Source: a virus
Reading direction: 5' to 3' (one strand)
Length of the DNA: 38,923 nucleotides
IMG/VR virus record: IMGVR_UViG_3300044678_002102
Span: 1-38,923 of that record
Of this stretch, positions 6,626 to 24,747 are shown in pieces. Under the pieces are notes generated by a model. It ran no database searches, was not told where the DNA came from, and was given only the letters and a program-made list of their open reading frames with translations. Each line of letters opens with the position of its first letter. Within the stretch, counting starts at the first letter, position 1. Position numbers and translations under genes: made by a program.

Positions 6626-7378
6626 ATGACAAATGAAAAAAATTTGTCCGAGGATACAAGTTTAGAGTCAAAAAAGAAAGGGAGAAAACCCAAGAAAGAT
6701 AAAATTTATTTTGGTGAAATACAAGAATTGGCAGTTAGAGATTTTTTAATTGCCGATTCTTTTGAGGAAAAAAACAAAATCTATAATGATTTTTTAAGAC
6801 ATCCAATAGATAAAATGATTTCCTCAATTATAAGGACTTACAAACTATATCGTAAAGACGTTGAATTTGAAGAAATTCACCACGACACCCACTCCTTTTT
6901 GATGACAAAAATTGATAAATTTAAACCATCAAAAGAAAAGAAAGCATATTCCTATTTTGGAACAATATGCAAACATTATTTAATGGGTCAGATTCAAAAA
7001 GACCAAAAAGAAACAAATAGAAAGGTATCGTATGAAGATATTTCATCTGATTTGGAAAACGATGAAAACCTTTCATATAGTATTGACAATGAATCCATAG
7101 AAGCGGATGATGTTATTAAAAGATTTTTAAAAGAATTGGATGAGGTGTTCAAACAGAATACGCTTAATGAAAATGAAATTAAATTAGGTGAAGCTCTATA
7201 TGAAATATTTGAAAACTATGATAAAATATTTATTAGTACATCAAATAATAAATTCAATAAAAATATCATCTTATTATCATTAAGAGAAATGACAAATTTG
7301 AGTACAAAAGAAATTCGTTCATCACTTAAAAAGTTCAAGTTTTTATATGTTAATATGATTGAAAAAATGGTTAGATAA
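6626..7378 (+). CDS. 55: RNA polymerase sigma factor, T4 gp55-like (late)
   Basis: A 250-aa protein with a basic start (KKKGRKPKKDK). Around residues 105-135, AYSYFGTICKHYLMGQIQKDQKETNRK matches the region 2-like block of T4 gp55-type sigma factors (in T4-like phages usually A-Y-x-Y-F-x-x-I). The C-terminal part (MTNLSTKEIRSSLKKFKFLY) looks like a degenerate helix-turn-helix. T4 gp55 is about 185 aa, so this is longer. It would direct host RNA polymerase to late promoters; the repeated TATTTATA octamer in this window is the obvious candidate target. It sits between glycosyltransferases and virion genes on the plus-strand operon. Confidence 0.72.
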   Translation: MTNEKNLSEDTSLESKKKGRKPKKDKIYFGEIQELAVRDFLIADSFEEKNKIYNDFLRHPIDKMISSIIRTYKLYRKDVEFEEIHHDTHSFLMTKIDKFKPSKEKKAYSYFGTICKHYLMGQIQKDQKETNRKVSYEDISSDLENDENLSYSIDNESIEADDVIKRFLKELDEVFKQNTLNENEIKLGEALYEIFENYDKIFISTSNNKFNKNIILLSLREMTNLSTKEIRSSLKKFKFLYVNMIEKMVR

Positions 7379-13368: not shown

Positions 13369-13833
13369 ATGAGAATCACAGAATCACAACTTAACAATCT
13401 AGTTAAAAAAATAGTTAACGAAAAAGATTATGGAAAAATACAAAACTATATGTTTTTTAGTAATCTTGAACAAATGATAAGACAAGCCCAAATGTTATTG
13501 GAATTAGACCCAATGCAAGTAGAACAAATTCTTCAAGATGGTCACGATTGGGCTGATGACCATATTACAGTCGCAAAAGAAAACTTAGACCAAGTATTTG
13601 ACTTTATGATGAATGAAACCAAACATTCTGATGAATTCTATGATGAAGATGTGGTTATGATGGAAGGAAAAAAGAAAACTGGTACAGAACTATGTGCAAG
13701 AGGATATAAAGCAGCAAAAGCTAAATATAAAGTATTTCCTAGTGCATATAGTAATGGTTATGCCGTTCAAGTATGTAAAGGTGACAAACCTGGATTAGAT
13801 GGAAAAAAACGTTGTTCACCACCATATTGTTAA
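13369..13833 (+). CDS. Putative packaged protein with capsid-targeting-like leader
   Basis: A 154-aa protein. Residues 1-18 (MRITESQLNNLVKKIVNE) form an amphipathic leader ending in I-V-N-E, the kind of site cut by T4 gp21-type prohead proteases, followed by KD. Residues 30-90 are acidic and helical. Residues 100-154 form a Cys-containing domain (TGTELCARGYKAAKAKYKVF, PSAYSNGYAVQVCKG and a final RCSPPYC) that I recall as recurrent in proteins of large phages, function unknown. It is the last gene of the plus-strand operon; a terminator follows 18 bp downstream. Confidence 0.6.
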   Translation: MRITESQLNNLVKKIVNEKDYGKIQNYMFFSNLEQMIRQAQMLLELDPMQVEQILQDGHDWADDHITVAKENLDQVFDFMMNETKHSDEFYDEDVVMMEGKKKTGTELCARGYKAAKAKYKVFPSAYSNGYAVQVCKGDKPGLDGKKRCSPPYC

Positions 13834-13851: not shown

Positions 13852-13884
13852 AAAAAAGGTAGAAAAATATTTCTACCTTTTTTT
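13852..13884 (+). terminator. Rho-independent terminator
   Basis: The inverted repeat AAAAAGGTAGAAA / TTTCTACCTTTTTTT with a 4-nt loop and a run of seven T residues closes the plus-strand operon that begins before position 107. Its T-tract overlaps the -33 element of the next promoter. Confidence 0.85.
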
Positions 13885-13913
13885 GTTTTAATAAGAAAAC
13901 CTTTTTATCTTTG
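13883..13913 (+). promoter_or_regulatory. Bacteroidota-type housekeeping promoter
   Basis: TTG (13883-13885), a spacer of 20 nt, then TATCTTTG (13906-13913) fit the Bacteroidota primary sigma consensus TTG-N19-20-TAnnTTTG. The ATG of the lipoprotein gene lies 24 nt further on. It is unlike the late octamer used elsewhere, so this gene is likely expressed by unmodified host RNA polymerase. Confidence 0.65.
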
Positions 13914-13937
13914 TGGAGAATAAAAAAATAACATTAT

Positions 13938-14150
13938 ATGAAAAAAATAATCAGTCTTATTGTAATCACACTTTTTTTTGGTTCTTGTACAGCACCAAAA
14001 ACAATTTTTAATGGTAAAAAATATGTCACAGAAAAAAGATATTTTAAGGATACTTTAAAAATGGTAAAAAACTCATTAAAAAAAATGAGTAAAGAAGACC
14101 AAAAAATTATTCTTGGTAGTGATATAGAATTCAAATATAAAGAAAATTAA
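13938..14150 (+). CDS. Small phage lipoprotein
   Basis: A 70-aa protein with a classic lipoprotein signal peptide: MKKIISLIVITLFFGSC, basic n-region, hydrophobic core, lipobox FGSC with the acylated Cys at 17. The mature part is about 53 residues and strongly basic (KNSLKKMSKEDQK). It would be exported, acylated and held on the periplasmic or outer face of a host membrane. Small phage lipoproteins often block superinfecting phages, but that role is inference. It has a host-type promoter, and its stop overlaps the stop of the convergent gene by 4 bp (TTAA). Confidence 0.7.
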   Translation: MKKIISLIVITLFFGSCTAPKTIFNGKKYVTEKRYFKDTLKMVKNSLKKMSKEDQKIILGSDIEFKYKEN

Positions 14151-15391
14151 ATTTGAGACAAACTACACGCGTCTATAGTTAATACAATTTTTTCTTCGTT
14201 TACTTCTTGTGGTGTAGCAACGTTAAATGAGTTAGTTTCACCCTTTTCATTTATAAATTCTATACCACCAACACCTGCATGACAAGCATATCTCCAAGGA
14301 AGTTTTTCTGTCCCAGATGAGGTTGTATGATCCCATTTGAGCTCAGAATTTGGTACATATGTTAATTGAGTACCATGAAATAGAGTGCCGGGTTTACCAT
14401 CTGGGTTTTTGACTTCAGCTCTAAACCATTCCGATACATCCTTTATTTCTGGATAAGCTTTAACTAAAGAATTTGGGTCTTTATAATAACTGACCAAATT
14501 TTTACATGTTAGTCCAAATGAAATTTTATTATTAGCATCTTGAATTGATTTCATCAATTCATCATCAACTATAAAATTATTTTCTCTAGGTCCACCACGA
14601 TTATTTGATAATGGAAATTTTTTTGTAACCCAAATTGGTTTACCTTTTTCATTTCTTTCTTGTATTTGTTTATCTTGAATGTAATATCCTTCATTATCCA
14701 TTACTCCAGAATTATTAAGTGAAGCATATGAAGCACCATCAACCCTTGTTAAAGGTTTACCATTAATAGTTACTACAAAAACAGCAGAATTACAATTATG
14801 ACCACCATGTACTCCTTCATCATAATATACTCTTATCTTCATATTTTTAGCACAAGGGTTATTAGGCGGTGGTGTCGTAGTTGGCTTTTCTTTACTAACA
14901 ATAGAAAAAGTTATTTCAACACGCCTATCATATTTTTTTTCAGCAGCCGTTTGACCTGTACCTATAACTGTTTCAGGTTCTTCAAATATAGGCATTGTTT
15001 TTATATTTCCATTTTTTAAAGCTTCGTTAAAAAAGTTAGTTAAAAATATTTTTATTGTTTTAGCTCTTCTATTAGCCAATTCAAGGTCACCTAATTTTAC
15101 AGGTGGATTAACTTCGTGATTATAATTTGGGTTATTATCTTCTGATGCAAATATTTTTATTGATGTAATACTACCTTCATTAGCCCTAATAAATTCTAAA
15201 GCCTTATTTAATTCAAGTGTTAAATTTTTAGTACCTACATCACTTAATTTACTAAATTTACCTGAATCAAAAAAATCGGAACTTTTTATTTCTAATTTTG
15301 GTTCAGTATTTTGAGTTTCTTTAATAATTCCATACATAGATAAGATATATTTTTTCTCATCTTCAGTTATGATTAATTTCTTACTACTCAT
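14147..15391 (-). CDS. Putative packaged protein with OmpA-like domain
   Basis: A 414-aa protein. Residues 1-25 (KLIITEDEKKYILSMYGIIKE) form a leader ending in I-I-K-E, a plausible prohead-protease site. Residues about 38-165 resemble the OmpA C-terminal peptidoglycan-binding fold: FFDSGKFSKLSDVG, then ITSIKIFASEDN, LGDLELANRRAKTIKIFL and finally YDRRVEITFS (Arg156-Arg157-Val-Glu-Ile). A Pro/Thr linker (TTTPPPNNPC) leads to a 240-residue C-terminal domain with several Cys, unrecognised. It could bind the cell wall after ejection or in the virion. The OmpA call is by motif; the packaging idea is inference. Confidence 0.55.
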   Translation of the reverse strand: MSSKKLIITEDEKKYILSMYGIIKETQNTEPKLEIKSSDFFDSGKFSKLSDVGTKNLTLELNKALEFIRANEGSITSIKIFASEDNNPNYNHEVNPPVKLGDLELANRRAKTIKIFLTNFFNEALKNGNIKTMPIFEEPETVIGTGQTAAEKKYDRRVEITFSIVSKEKPTTTPPPNNPCAKNMKIRVYYDEGVHGGHNCNSAVFVVTINGKPLTRVDGASYASLNNSGVMDNEGYYIQDKQIQERNEKGKPIWVTKKFPLSNNRGGPRENNFIVDDELMKSIQDANNKISFGLTCKNLVSYYKDPNSLVKAYPEIKDVSEWFRAEVKNPDGKPGTLFHGTQLTYVPNSELKWDHTTSSGTEKLPWRYACHAGVGGIEFINEKGETNSFNVATPQEVNEEKIVLTIDACSLSQI

Positions 15392-15402
15392 TTATTTTTT
15401 TT

Positions 15403-15410
15403 TATAAATA
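15403..15410 (-). promoter_or_regulatory. Putative late promoter octamer TATTTATA
   Basis: On the minus strand TATTTATA is followed by an 11-nt A-rich leader and the ATG at 15391. The plus-strand reading TATAAATA faces the divergent gene at 15427, so a bidirectional role cannot be excluded. Confidence 0.5.
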
Positions 15411-15426
15411 TAAACACACTTCTAAA

Positions 15427-15840
15427 ATGAAAAAGATTATTTTAAGATTTTTAAAAAGATTTTATGTAAAAATGGTGCTATTCAATAGAAAAATGAATAA
15501 CCCAGATTATGACAAAGTCTCCGAGACTCAAAAAAAATGTATGTCAATTGCGAGATTATTGATTCTACATCCAGATTCTAGTTTCCGACTTACTTTTTTA
15601 AGCAAAAAAAGATATATCATAAATAAAACTTTGGGTTTATTTCTAATATTGGATGGGAAATTATTGAGTATAACAAACCATGTTCATCACCATGATATTA
15701 TCATAAGTGACAGAAATTATGATAGGTTCACCAAAATGTACGATGAAAAAGTTGAAACAATACGTCAAAAAGATGAGGATGAAATTATGTCACAAATTGT
15801 TCACTCATTGGATGTAATACTTAATAAAATAAAACAATAA
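15427..15840 (+). CDS. Hypothetical protein, basic
   Basis: A 137-aa protein with a Lys/Arg/Phe-rich N-terminus (MKKIILRFLKRFYVKMVLF) that could be a short amphipathic or membrane-associated helix. A hydrophobic beta-like core follows (KTLGLFLILDGKLLSI) with HVHHHD (four His in six residues), a possible metal site, and then an acidic helical C-terminus. No family is recognised. It is one of the few plus-strand genes in the minus-strand island; its stop codon abuts that of the next gene with no gap. Confidence 0.55.
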   Translation: MKKIILRFLKRFYVKMVLFNRKMNNPDYDKVSETQKKCMSIARLLILHPDSSFRLTFLSKKRYIINKTLGLFLILDGKLLSITNHVHHHDIIISDRNYDRFTKMYDEKVETIRQKDEDEIMSQIVHSLDVILNKIKQ

Positions 15841-16737
15841 TTATTTCTTAGGTTTATAAGAAGTCATTGTCGGTTTATTTCCAGTACCAATTTTGGGGTC
15901 TTTCTTTTCTGCCCTACGTTTCTGAGCACAAGCCGATTTCTTCTCTGAATCTGACATCTTACCAGCTACACCCGCAGCCCTACATTTAGGGTAACTCTTG
16001 GTATCTGCCTCACTCCTTCCACAAGGGGGATGTTTTCCATCTACCTTTCTACAGATATTAACCCAAGGTCCTTTAGGTTGTGATGACCCCTTGGGTTTTT
16101 TCTTTGTTCCAAACCATACCGCCAAATCTTCAGTTAATATTGGAGCTTCTTCATAATCCCACTCATTAATTGTATGGACATAATGTTTATCAAGTTTATA
16201 ACTTCCATCCTTTCCCTTTTCCCACATTCCAACAGTTCTTTTTATATTATCTTTAGTTGTTGATTTAACTTTAATTTTATTTACTTCAGTATCAACAAAA
16301 TCTGAAAATGGTTGTAATTCAGGATTCTTCCATTTTTTCATCCCAATCTCAAGTGGTGCATTATATTCACCACCATATCCAAATGTCGCCTCATTTATTT
16401 TTTTTGATTTACCCTTTGGATAGGGGTTAATTACCTCACCATCGTCATCATTCTGTACTGGATGATTCTTGGCATAGATTGAAGTTTTTTTTGCCTTAGA
16501 TTCAATTTTTTTGATGTCCTTCTTGGATGTTGACATTTTACCATCATAACTATCTGTCGCTAATTCTTGACTATAATACTTTGATACAGACTCACTATAT
16601 GGCCCTAATTCCGATTTTTTAAATATTCTCTTTCCCATTCTTAGAGGAGCAATAAATGAACCTCTACTACCACTAGCATCACTAGTTGCTTCTTTTAATA
16701 TTTCTTGTTTGATTTTTTTAATTAAATTCTGTATCAT
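15841..16737 (-). CDS. Putative packaged protein, internal repeat plus DUF5872-like C-terminus
   Basis: A 298-aa protein. The ATG at 16737 is chosen over an in-frame ATG at 16767 because it sits 12 nt from the late octamer. Residues 1-16 are a leader ending in I-L-K-E, then ATSD. Residues 17-50 and 117-147 are related repeats (E-A-x5-GS/GGE-x-APLxxGxxxxKxxELxPFS), each directly behind a Glu-Ala junction. Residues 206-298 contain GPWVNICRK, HPPCGRSEAD, SYPKCRAA, MSDSEKKSAC and GNKPTMTS, which match a domain I recall as DUF5872, common in large phages and of unknown function. The first junction (EATSD-A-SGS) closely resembles the capsid protein's own cleavage site. Confidence 0.6.
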   Translation of the reverse strand: MIQNLIKKIKQEILKEATSDASGSRGSFIAPLRMGKRIFKKSELGPYSESVSKYYSQELATDSYDGKMSTSKKDIKKIESKAKKTSIYAKNHPVQNDDDGEVINPYPKGKSKKINEATFGYGGEYNAPLEIGMKKWKNPELQPFSDFVDTEVNKIKVKSTTKDNIKRTVGMWEKGKDGSYKLDKHYVHTINEWDYEEAPILTEDLAVWFGTKKKPKGSSQPKGPWVNICRKVDGKHPPCGRSEADTKSYPKCRAAGVAGKMSDSEKKSACAQKRRAEKKDPKIGTGNKPTMTSYKPKK

Positions 16738-17026: not shown

Positions 17027-17515
17027 TTACTTTGAATCAGTTAAACCAAGTATCTCGTTTGGATCAGTAAAATTAGATTTAGTAGGTGCGACATATTCTT
17101 TTTTACCTGTCATATTATTAGCCGCATAATCAGTTGATTTAACCGGAGTTATTTCAGTCCCTTGATTCATATTAACACCTTGTAAATTACCATCTTTCGA
17201 TGCGGGATTAATTTTTTCAAAATCTCCAGCACTTGGACTTTTCAAGATATTTTGTTGAGCATTTGTTTGTGTATTTTGTTTAGCCGTTTGTTGTGGTCTA
17301 TAAAGACTAAGACCTAAATTTAGAACATTATTAATTGCTGTTAATGTATTTAGACCAGCTTTTCCATCACTAGTACCAACCTCTGCACGTCCTTTCCTTA
17401 ATAATAAATCTTGTATTTGAGCAATTGTCTTATTTTCCGAATCTTCTTTTAACAAAATTTGTTTAACCAATTTTTTTATTTCACGTTCAGATAATATCAT
17501 CATATTTTGTTTCAT
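17027..17515 (-). CDS. Putative packaged protein with peptidoglycan-binding-like domain
   Basis: A 162-aa protein. Residues 1-24 (MILSEREIKKLVKQILLKE) are a leader ending in L-L-K-E. Residues 30-67 (IAQIQDLLLRKGRAEVG, TSDGKAGLNTLTAINNVL) follow the PG_binding_1 pattern 'xLQxxLxxxG...DGxxGxxTxxAI'. The remainder is Gln/Asn/Thr-rich and probably disordered. It is the last gene of a four-gene minus-strand set that lacks internal octamers and is likely transcribed from the promoter at 20031. Confidence 0.5.
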   Translation of the reverse strand: MKQNMMILSEREIKKLVKQILLKEDSENKTIAQIQDLLLRKGRAEVGTSDGKAGLNTLTAINNVLNLGLSLYRPQQTAKQNTQTNAQQNILKSPSAGDFEKINPASKDGNLQGVNMNQGTEITPVKSTDYAANNMTGKKEYVAPTKSNFTDPNEILGLTDSK

Positions 17516-18226: not shown

Positions 18227-18544
18227 TTATTGTGCGTAATTAGTTGGGCTTTTTATAAAGTTAGAACTACCGCCCGTATTAGTCCCAATTGGTTTGACAG
18301 CACCACCACCACCGCCTCCACCAATTGGAGGAACAAAATTAGCACTACAACCATTACCAGGAATACTTCTCAAAACTTCTAATAATTTTTTTGCTGTATC
18401 TGGACCTAAATTATTATCTACACTCACACCAATTAATGATTGTAAATCAGCAATTGTAATATCTGTTGATTGTTCAAATAAGAATCTTGGTTTATGTAAA
18501 CTTAAAATCCTTCTTTTTTCACTTTCACTTATTAATAGTCTCAT
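18227..18544 (-). CDS. Small putative packaged protein, peptidoglycan-binding-like
   Basis: A 105-aa protein. Residues 1-24 (MRLLISESEKRRILSLHKPR then FLFE) are a leader of the same type as its neighbours, with Glu24 before Q. Residues 30-60 (ITIADLQSLIGVSVDNNLGP, DTAKKLLEVL) look like a short PG_binding_1 unit ('LQxxxGvxvDxxxGpxT'). A run of seven Gly (about 75-81) and a low-complexity tail follow. It may be a fragment or minimal version of the PG-binding proteins around it. Confidence 0.5.
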   Translation of the reverse strand: MRLLISESEKRRILSLHKPRFLFEQSTDITIADLQSLIGVSVDNNLGPDTAKKLLEVLRSIPGNGCSANFVPPIGGGGGGGAVKPIGTNTGGSSNFIKSPTNYAQ

Positions 18545-18558
18545 ATTTCTTTGTTTGG

Positions 18559-20016
18559 TTATTTTTTATTATTTTTTATGTAATCATATAACTGATTTAA
18601 TGCGTCTTGGTTTAAAGTAGAACCTCCAATCTTAGCACATTTTAATATTTCACTAATATATGATGCAGATATTGAAACTACACCCATTCCATCCATACTA
18701 TTTTTTGGTCTTTCTGGACCTGGGATTCTATATTTTGGTTCAGGTGCCTTTGATTTTCCACTCCAATCACCTTGAGCTGCTGGAGTTACAATAAGTCTAG
18801 ATTTACCAGCTCTTTTACCACTACACTGGAATGTTCCGGTCATATCTTTTTCTTCTTTTTCGTCAAACTCAGTAAGAAACTCCCCATTTATAAAGAAAAA
18901 TACTTTACCTTCAGGGTATTGACTTAATTGATGATGTCTAGCCCTAGACTCATCATCCATTTCTGCTTCATCAGTTATAGTACCCATTATTTTAGCATTA
19001 GATGTTACTAAACAAGGATATTTGTCTATTATACTTTCAGGCTTACCAACTCTAGAACTAGTTGGAGTTAACAAAATTTCTTCTTGACCTATAGAACATT
19101 TAAAATTTCCTGATATTTTATCTCTATCTGAAGTCTTATAATATGTACCATCGTTCTTAAAAAAAGTTTTTTCATCTATTGTTGTTGTTGTACCACCACC
19201 TTCTGACATATCAATTATATTCTTATGGCTACTAGGATTTAAAATATAAACAAATTTAAAATCTTTCGCTTCAGTTGCTATTCCAGCAAAACAAGGATAT
19301 ACATCAACAAACGGTTTAGTTAAATCATCAGCAGTATAAGTTGACCCCTCTTTACCTTTAATTTTCATTTTTTTAGTCCTTCTACCTGTTTCTGGATCAA
19401 TTACTACTTCACTATCATCAACACTATCATCAGTATAGTCATCTACTACTGGAGTATTTTCAGCTAATTGAGTTAAAGTACCTACTATGGCACTTTTATA
19501 AACAGAATTATAACTTATTTCATCAAACATTTGCATTAAATTTTCTCCAGAATCAGCATGTGCTCTACTTGCAAACGCATTAGCCTTACAAAAATTAGGA
19601 ATATTTTTCAAAAGTAATAAAGTGTTTTTCATTACATTAACCATTTTATCACTCACACCTCTATTTGTAAAAGTGCCTCCGTGCATATATGTCTCACTTG
19701 CCAAGGCCTTACCAACAACCTCTACTTGAGCTTGAAGGTCTTGTACTTTAATTGTATTTGTACCTAATAAATTATTAATTATATTCTGTTCGCAATAAGA
19801 AGTTACACTATTTGACCAAGCAGTTCTAGTACCAGTACCAAAATTAGCCAAAAGTTGTAAAAATTCTCGTTTTGCTGGTGGAGACCAAGTTCCAGGCGAT
19901 GCAAATTTAATTGATTCTGGTTGTTCATTTAACCAAAATTTACCAACTTGTCTACTTTTATGTAATTTTAAAATTCTTTGTTTTTCTTCTTCGTTTAAAA
20001 AATATAGTTTTTTCAT
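18559..20016 (-). CDS. Putative packaged protein with duplicated PC...GxFxC domain
   Basis: A 485-aa protein. Residues 1-31 (LNEEEKQRILKLHKSRQ then VGKFWLNE) are a leader ending in W-L-N-E before QPES. Residues 45-190 are helical and unrecognised. Two related domains follow at about 238-319 and 331-412: each begins with YPC, contains a beta-hairpin with a 'NDGTYY' or 'INGEF' turn, and ends with GNFKC or GTFQC plus an I-x-x-TP strand. The C-terminal helix (SASYISEILKCAKIG, LNQDALNQLYDYIKN) resembles that of the 229-aa neighbour. It has a putative late promoter at 20031 and heads a four-gene operon. Confidence 0.55.
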   Translation of the reverse strand: MKKLYFLNEEEKQRILKLHKSRQVGKFWLNEQPESIKFASPGTWSPPAKREFLQLLANFGTGTRTAWSNSVTSYCEQNIINNLLGTNTIKVQDLQAQVEVVGKALASETYMHGGTFTNRGVSDKMVNVMKNTLLLLKNIPNFCKANAFASRAHADSGENLMQMFDEISYNSVYKSAIVGTLTQLAENTPVVDDYTDDSVDDSEVVIDPETGRRTKKMKIKGKEGSTYTADDLTKPFVDVYPCFAGIATEAKDFKFVYILNPSSHKNIIDMSEGGGTTTTIDEKTFFKNDGTYYKTSDRDKISGNFKCSIGQEEILLTPTSSRVGKPESIIDKYPCLVTSNAKIMGTITDEAEMDDESRARHHQLSQYPEGKVFFFINGEFLTEFDEKEEKDMTGTFQCSGKRAGKSRLIVTPAAQGDWSGKSKAPEPKYRIPGPERPKNSMDGMGVVSISASYISEILKCAKIGGSTLNQDALNQLYDYIKNNKK

Positions 20017-23250: not shown

Positions 23251-24747
23251 TTATTTTAATTTTGACATTAAATCCTTCATTCTTAAGAATTGAGGATTTT
23301 CATATGTTTTTGATTCAATTAAATTAATTGCCGAACCTGTTGAAGGTGTTTTTTCGATTGTTCTTTCAATTGATTCTGTAATTTGACTAGTCTTAGTTGT
23401 AGTAAGTTCGTCTTTAATAATTCTGTATAAATTTTTTGATTCTTTAAGAGTTTCAACACCATCAAATCTTTGTAGAATATTAATTTTTTCTTGTTTTGAA
23501 GTTGAATGTTCTGTAAACAATCTAGTTGCGTACGCTAAGTTTGAATTAAAGATTGCAACTTCATCAAGTTTATTTCTAAAAATATTTAATGCTTTTCTAT
23601 ACTCTTCATTTTTTTCTCTAAGGATTAGAAGTTCAGTATTGTCAATAGATTCTTTTCTGATATGACGTGGTGCCGCTTTTGGTTTTGGAAGTCCTTCTCT
23701 ACCCCAATATTTTCCGTTTCCTAAAGTACGTGCAGCCTCTTTTGTTTCTACTTTTTTAGGCATCATCGTCATACTTTCTTTTGTTTCTTTTTTGGGTTTG
23801 ATTTTAAAGTCACCTTTAATTGGTGTTTCTTTATATACATTTACTTTTTTAGCAGAACCCATACCTACACCTTTAGTGCCTTGTTTCATATCTTCTTTGA
23901 AACCACCTTCTTGATTTGGTTTTTTAGAATATTTGAATTTAGATGCTGAACCAAAACCCATGCCTTTTGGTTTTTTTGTTGATTTTTTTGATTCCATCAT
24001 ATATTCATCTTCTTCATCTTCAAAGTCAAAACCTTCTCCGAATTCATCTTCAAACGCTGATTCAACATCATAGTCATCCATTTCAATTTCGTATAAAGTT
24101 TCTTCTTCCTCATCCATACCATAACCCATATCGTCCATTTCCATCATGTCCATTTCATCGTCCATTTCCATCATGTCCATTTCATCATCCATTTCCATCA
24201 TGTCCATTTCATCGTCCATTTCCATCATATCCATTTCATCGTCCATTTCCATCATATCATTAGAATGATACATTTCATCGAATTCATCCATACCTTCGGT
24301 AACAATCATATACTCTTTGTTTGTTTCTTGGTCTTTTAAGTTTATGTTGCCCGCAGTATCTTTGGTTACAACGATTTCATCTTCAGGGCTTAAAAGTTTG
24401 AATACTTTTAAGACTTCTGACGTTGGTTGTTTTGTGAGATCTATTGTATCAACCTCCATATCAGGTTCTGACATATCCATATTATCCTCTATGTCCATAT
24501 CGTCATCCTCTATGTCCATATCATCATCCTCTATGTCCATATCATCATCCTCTATGTCCATATCATCATCCTCCATATCATCTTCAACCTCTTCATCGTC
24601 TTGTTCTTTGAGAGATTCTTTTACCAATTCTTTGATTTCTTGTCTCATTGTTGAGGCAAGTATTCCTTTTGCATTTTCAGTTACAACATCTTCCAAATTT
24701 TTCATTTGTAAGATTGTTTCTTCAACTAATGATTTCTTTTCTGCCAT
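23251..24747 (-). CDS. 22: Prohead scaffold/core protein, gp22-like
   Basis: A 498-aa, extremely acidic protein directly upstream of the capsid gene, the position of T4 gp22. Residues about 55-90 carry four DDDMDIE heptads, and about 163-205 carry nine-residue repeats of M-D-D-E-M-D-M-M-E. Residues 240-365 are basic (KPKGMGFGSASKFKYSKKPN). The C-terminal 130 residues (RKALNIFRNKLDEVAIFNSN, LAYATRLFTEHS) match the helical core of gp22-type scaffolds, ending in QFLRMKDLMSKLK. It would be degraded by the prohead protease during maturation. T4 gp22 is about 270 aa; the extra length is the acidic and basic repeat region. Confidence 0.82.
   Translation of the reverse strand: MAEKKSLVEETILQMKNLEDVVTENAKGILASTMRQEIKELVKESLKEQDDEEVEDDMEDDDMDIEDDDMDIEDDDMDIEDDDMDIEDNMDMSEPDMEVDTIDLTKQPTSEVLKVFKLLSPEDEIVVTKDTAGNINLKDQETNKEYMIVTEGMDEFDEMYHSNDMMEMDDEMDMMEMDDEMDMMEMDDEMDMMEMDDEMDMMEMDDMGYGMDEEEETLYEIEMDDYDVESAFEDEFGEGFDFEDEEDEYMMESKKSTKKPKGMGFGSASKFKYSKKPNQEGGFKEDMKQGTKGVGMGSAKKVNVYKETPIKGDFKIKPKKETKESMTMMPKKVETKEAARTLGNGKYWGREGLPKPKAAPRHIRKESIDNTELLILREKNEEYRKALNIFRNKLDEVAIFNSNLAYATRLFTEHSTSKQEKINILQRFDGVETLKESKNLYRIIKDELTTTKTSQITESIERTIEKTPSTGSAINLIESKTYENPQFLRMKDLMSKLK
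24131..24258 (-). repeat. Coding tandem repeat, 27-nt unit
   Basis: About 4.7 copies of a 27-nt unit starting at 24131, 24158, 24185, 24212 and 24239 encode the MDDEMDMME repeats of the scaffold protein. Copies differ at single positions (tcg/tca, atg/ata). Confidence 0.85.
24484..24576 (-). repeat. Coding tandem repeat, 21-nt unit
   Basis: More than four copies of a 21-nt unit (atcctctatgtccatatcat on the plus strand) encode DDDMDIE heptads in the scaffold protein. Confidence 0.85.

Follow-up and report, generated by a model that had tools for sequence, protein, structure and literature searches.

In phage T4 the early protein Spackle (gp61.3) acts in the periplasm, where it inhibits gp5, the tail lysozyme that an incoming phage brings (PMC7677548), and in phage T5 the superinfection-exclusion lipoprotein Llp faces the periplasm and acts on the FhuA receptor (PMC9586334). 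Polymorphic toxin–immunity pairs include phage-borne MuF toxins (PMC5576092, PMC3482391), and the internal head proteins of T-even phages share only a capsid targeting sequence (PMC3012670). Through the locus described here, a lipoprotein that was an orphan can be placed in a slot that recurs among uncultivated T4-like phages and is marked by a promoter. Its best explanation, to which we give a probability of about 0.45, is that the lipoprotein would be the early periplasmic half of a polymorphic pair with a role in exclusion or self-immunity.

The window, that is the whole stretch of DNA analysed, is a 38.9 kb virus fragment. It encodes the gp23 major capsid protein (Pfam E 5e-75) as well as portal, terminase, prohead protease, PhoH and a gp55-like late sigma factor, and is therefore assigned to a T4-like phage. 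Among named records, Flavobacterium phage immuto has a capsid protein near to that of the window (40%); this likeness and the type of promoter described below suggest that the phage infects Bacteroidota. Adjoining gp23 is a gene for a 498-aa protein (23251-24747) with long acidic repeats (DDDMDIED..., MMEMDDEMD...), which looks like a scaffold or core protein. The features of the lipoprotein locus are collected in Table 1.

Table 1. Features of the lipoprotein locus and the late sigma factor gene, in positions of the window
Feature	Position	Strand	Remarks
Late sigma factor, T4 gp55-like	6626..7378	+	PHROG 234, E 0.001
g154, upstream flank of the insertion site	13369..13833	+	conserved
Hairpin terminator of the upstream g154 unit	13852..13883	.	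z -5.3 on both strands
Host-type promoter	13882..13913	+	TTTG 13882-13885, N20, TATCTTTG 13906-13913
70-aa lipoprotein gene	13938..14150	+	lipobox FGSC; homologues; codon usage
g414, 414-aa partner	14147..15391	-	tail-to-tail with the lipoprotein gene, 4-nt overlap
Late-type motif ATATTTATA	15403..15411	-	about 20 nt 5' of the g414 start codon
g137	15427..15840	+	gene behind the host-type promoter in nearly all relatives

The open reading frame that the earlier note had read as a 70-aa lipoprotein does have the features of one. Its N-terminus, MKKIISLIVITLFFGSC, has the basic start, hydrophobic core and lipobox with cysteine of bacterial lipoproteins, giving a signal peptide of residues 1-16, a lipid-carrying Cys17 and a mature part of 54 aa; the Pfam LPAM_1 match was below cut-off only. 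A spurious reading frame was considered and rejected on the basis of homologues at 37-44% identity and a coding-like codon usage (score 0.20, a value reached by 2% of 41 spurious ORFs). In a home-made scan this was the only gene of the window bearing a signal or transmembrane segment. An AlphaFold model of the protein alone places two helices in the mature part, at a pLDDT of 63 that is too poor for a fold search. In surface lipoproteins of Bacteroidota, acidic residues at positions +2 to +6 following the cysteine serve as an export signal (PMC5080379). The corresponding stretch here, C-TAPKT, contains no D or E at +2 to +6, a signal that presupposes the probable Bacteroidota host and may not be the only one in use. 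The lipoprotein is therefore predicted to face the periplasm, and the surface exposure proposed previously is not supported.

Used alone as a query, the lipoprotein gave only chance matches in viral contigs, species genomes, named phages, PADLOC and the PDB, and its homologues surfaced only through the neighbourhoods of relatives. At locus L174 a 72-aa lipoprotein occupies the convergent position and shares 44% identity with the window protein over 59 residues. A profile built from these two sequences retrieved further copies among the relatives and no homologue in species genomes. Every close homologue with a readable neighbour converges on a gene on the gp23 side, the two being -3 to +4 nt apart. 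A clear host-type -7 element lies 32 nt ahead of the start in all of them but the L188/L189 pair; homologues from other lineages are likewise convergent on the gene adjoining gp23. The description of the gene as isolated thus has to be replaced, as its stop overlaps the convergent 414-aa gene and it forms half of a recurring two-gene cassette.

Upstream, the terminator that had been claimed is present as a hairpin with a 14 bp stem (MFE -14.4 kcal/mol) and a T-tract on both strands, so that g414 transcription on the minus strand can end there as well. It is kept in L002, L004, L010 and L023. The element TATCTTTG fits TAHHTTTG, the -7 consensus measured in Flavobacterium johnsoniae, in which the -33 element is weak (PMC6847099), and is followed by a 24-nt leader and then the lipoprotein ORF. 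The TTTG, the spacing of about 19-21 nt, the TAHHTTTG and the short leader of a Bacteroidota housekeeping promoter are all found in the window. A count restricted to the window's intergenic upstream regions gives one TTG-N19-20-TAnnTTTG where shuffles would give 0.01, and across the whole window TTTG-N19-21-TAnnTTTG is at chance level (3 vs 2.2). Stronger evidence than such motif counts comes from conservation among relatives, which upholds the promoter assignment: of 97 distinct relatives, 89 have the -7 element TAHHTTTG at the orthologous position, 5' of g137, and none has the late-type motif described below there. An earlier, first set had given 52/54 and 0/54. That the -33 element is built into the T-tract of the terminator is correct for the window, where TTTG ends the tract, but this is a feature of one subclade only. 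As the -33 element is weak in F. johnsoniae and L007, L009 and L018 have the promoter without an adjoining hairpin, the overlap is probably incidental.

The genes g154, g137 and g308 are co-located in this order in 161 loci. In the closest relatives of the window (L002, L010 and L023) the same hairpin, promoter and leader lie immediately 5' of g137. The window and L003 are exceptional because a small exported gene separates the promoter from g137; in the window the lipoprotein gene and the convergent g414 sit between the two and displace g137. Judged by this comparison of sequences, the host-type promoter predates the lipoprotein gene at this site. L004 has an exported gene with its own copy of the promoter; the first 27 nt of this gene are those of the window lipoprotein gene save one position. 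In L003 (9331-11355) a related pair of exported genes, of 113 and 115 aa, flanks a g414 homologue; the second lies directly under the hairpin and host-type promoter, before g137.

Other genes occupy the same region. HNH-type endonuclease-like genes (CxxC...C near the N-terminus) recur in the g154-g137 spacer, at 6502-7050 of L004 and also in L041, L049, L058, L066 and L142. The g137 family, with its host-type promoter inside the structural region in the 161 loci, gives a confident model (pLDDT 90); in fold searches this matched only phage proteins, all uncharacterised but for one with a ferritin-like annotation. Its relatives are found in phages only, and the one in Flavobacterium phage immuto is annotated as ribonucleotide reductase/ferritin-like. 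Directly 3' of g137 (L019, L047, L049-L060 and others) lies a short gene, convergent on g308 and variable in sequence between lineages, whose product has a membrane segment at its N-terminus.

A second class of promoter is suggested by the motif RTATTTAT(A), which both the window and a 141-kb relative show at 10-20 fold enrichment about 20 nt before start codons. In the window RTATTTATA precedes terminase, head, tail-type and g414 genes and is absent before the lipoprotein gene; in relatives RTATTTAT(A) is found before 34/50 g308 and 11/13 g414 genes. Given the genes behind it and the presence of the gp55-like sigma factor, which likely reads it, the motif is taken as a putative late promoter. 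The placing of a host-type promoter between late units agrees with this distribution, since late genes carry RTATTTATA and exported genes do not. The motif lies upstream of about 13 genes at 11690-36041 of the window, marks structural genes and differs from the TATAAATA of T4. TATAAATA was itself tried as a T4-type late motif and dropped, its occurrences here being mostly opposite-strand readings of RTATTTATA.

The partner protein g414 consists of an N-terminal peptide (MSSKKLIITEDEKKYILSMYGIIKE), an OmpA-like part and a variable C-terminal part. The OmpA match of the window protein is weak (Pfam E 0.12); the partners of L040 and L136 match above cut-off, and most partners have an OmpA-like remainder after the N-terminal peptide. 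OmpA was the sole Pfam find, and no toxic domain was recognised in the partners. Their alignment gives the N-terminal consensus MIKQxWxISxxExxRILxLHESATKNLYLIxEQ, followed by a variable C-terminus. The T4 prohead protease cuts at LxE-type sites; the partner peptide ends in an LxE/IxE-type site, in the window a putative IKE|TQN, and a prohead protease gene is present in the window. The peptide is a candidate capsid-targeting sequence like that of T4, and g414 looks like a virion protein. The window partner is closest, by a modest margin, to the partners of the lipoprotein homologues L183/L187, and is less similar to those of its closest backbones L003/L004. Further late proteins of the window share an N-terminal helix-like peptide ending in hydrophobic-x-Glu (e.g. 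ISESEKRRILSLH...LFE and LNEEEKQRILKLHK...LNE). The genes concerned, at 17027-17515, 18227-18544, 18559-20016 and 15841-16737 besides g154 and g414, may encode packaged proteins with candidate capsid-targeting peptides.

Among the relatives a small signal-peptide gene flanks 13/25 g414-type genes, compared with 12/628 other large genes; these counts follow a home-made signal-peptide rule, which missed several genes (including those of L033 and L150) and falsely called g137 of L032/L116. Perfect TAHHTTTG elements lie within 75 nt of 18 of the 21 distinct exported genes convergent on partners, and the late motif before none (0/21). In all, 32 pairs in convergent, tandem or divergent orientation comprise 6 partner types and 12 exported families, where an earlier clustering had given 15. 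Each family goes with one partner type, with the exception of the window's own family, as L188/L189 have an unrelated 227-aa gene where the OmpA-type partner is expected. The exported slot holds lipoproteins, secreted proteins and one CAP-domain protein (the L137 family), folds so diverse that they could have diverse functions. For 103 loci spanning the region, the raw counts of both genes, partner only, exported gene only and neither are 22/3/3/75. After contigs were de-duplicated and three missed signal peptides and the false calls were corrected by eye, these become 17/1/2/54; the Fisher p of 1e-13 overstates the co-occurrence because the loci are related.

The two genes also change together. 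L038 and L040 share 96% identity until 29 nt into the exported ORF and 95% from about partner codon 40 through gp23; between these points there is no similarity, so that the exported protein and the partner C-terminus differ jointly. L136, L137 and L150 show the same block swap. The swaps delimit the conserved ends as the promoter and signal-peptide start on one side and the partner N-terminal peptide on the other. Flavobacterium phage immuto has no such convergent pair beside gp23. These comparisons give strong support to the anatomy of the cassette, with its two classes of promoter and its genes linked tail-to-tail, which co-occur and are swapped as a block. A functional pairing of the exported gene with its partner is reasonably probable. 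Tail-to-tail linkage alone can yield block swaps without physical interaction, and functional pairing and exclusion are therefore offered as interpretations.

In the mechanism proposed, host RNA polymerase would transcribe the lipoprotein gene from the TTTG/TAHHTTTG promoter on DNA entry, and g414 would be made late from the ATATTTATA-type promoter. The partner would be carried in the virion and act on the envelope. As the partner looks like a late virion protein, the lipoprotein may protect the infected cell, shielding its envelope from the partner-type protein of a second phage of the same type, in the mode in which T4 Spackle blocks the gp5 lysozyme. A terminator scan found none between the two stops or within the lipoprotein gene, so that the late g414 transcript should run antisense across the lipoprotein gene to the bidirectional hairpin, which would switch the lipoprotein off late. 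We infer the early and late timing, the periplasmic location of the lipoprotein, the location of the partner in the virion, the physical interaction and the exclusion. The profile of the gene fits the superinfection exclusion originally suggested, and exclusion or self-immunity as its function is put somewhat short of even odds. The lysogenic conversion suggested alongside it is not retained for this T4-like phage, since no integration gene was noticed among the window proteins scanned.

The alternative that survives best, although unlikely, is a receptor-blocking exclusion lipoprotein of the T5 Llp/Cor type, which would jam an outer-membrane receptor from the periplasm with g414 only linked to it. 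The lipoprotein matches Llp in size, lipid anchor and host-type promoter, and in the periplasmic face predicted for it (PMC9586334), and Cys17 is followed by no export signal (PMC5080379). Against this, the lipoprotein has no sequence match to Llp or Cor in the PDB, Pfam or PHROGs, its neighbour is the OmpA-like gene on the gp23 side and not a receptor-binding gene, and OmpA-like partners co-occur with many unrelated exported proteins, some of which are not lipoproteins. A second, rather improbable account is that the two proteins cooperate, the exported protein readying the envelope (for entry, assembly or lysis) for the phage's own late partner. This would explain the tight linkage, co-occurrence and block swapping, and both proteins are expected at the cell wall; the separate promoter classes, early and late, and the presence of one gene without the other speak against it. 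In L032/L116 the partner stands with no exported gene beside it, and in L188/L189/L162 the lipoprotein has no partner of the OmpA type.

It is also improbable that a recombination hotspot gathers unrelated accessory genes, the lipoprotein gene and g414 being together merely as neighbours. The HNH endonuclease and other genes inserted near g137 would fit such a hotspot, and the conserved ends would steer block exchange without interaction; yet the pairing is found at three different sites and in three orientations, and the other insertions show no such pairing. An outer-membrane spanin or other lysis lipoprotein, to which the small size and lipid anchor would correspond, can practically be dismissed, given the host-type rather than late-type promoter and the lack of an adjoining inner-membrane spanin-like gene or any other signal- or TM-bearing gene in the window scan.

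The early periplasmic half of a polymorphic exclusion or self-immunity pair thus remains the preferred reading. A more speculative extension, which we consider unlikely, is that T4-like Bacteroidota phages carry a polymorphic cassette for phage–phage competition, in which a late, capsid-delivered protein that acts on the envelope and a cognate early exported protector lie tail-to-tail and exchange their variable ends as a block, the window lipoprotein being one of many types of protector. For a dozen unrelated exported proteins the cassette predicts the partner, the time of expression and the compartment. Should the pairs be cognate, this would be a superinfection-exclusion system that changes specificity by cassette exchange, and who excludes whom could be read from sequence.

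By analogy the lipoprotein may be a Spackle/Llp-like superinfection-exclusion or immunity factor, although it matches no defence family searched and has no sequence match to T4 Spackle in Pfam or PHROG. Like Spackle it is a small exported protein of an apparently early phage gene, with a cell-wall-acting phage protein as its proposed target. Spackle is, however, soluble and generally conserved, whereas the window protein is lipid-anchored and occupies a slot in which many unrelated proteins are found, exchanged together with a linked late partner. With T5 Llp it shares small size, a predicted periplasmic face and a place among the late genes of a lytic phage; llp adjoins the receptor-binding protein gene, whereas the neighbour here is OmpA-like and on the gp23 side. 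The partner resembles the internal head proteins of T-even phages in its conserved N-terminal peptide with an LxE-type site, its diverse remainder and the position of its gene beside gp23, but the peptide sequence differs and most partners are OmpA-like. Polymorphic toxin–immunity pairs similarly combine a conserved N-terminal delivery part and an exchangeable C-terminus with a small linked gene that is co-exchanged, an arrangement seen here in the L038/L040 and L136/L137/L150 swaps, the partner alignment and the table of families. The cassette differs from them in having no recognised toxic domain, in its carriage by a T4-like phage, and in its small gene, which is convergent, has an early host-type promoter and encodes an exported protein. 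As far as can be read from its genes, the cassette stands outside the Llp/Cor and Spackle families by sequence and shares the architecture of polymorphic effector–immunity systems.
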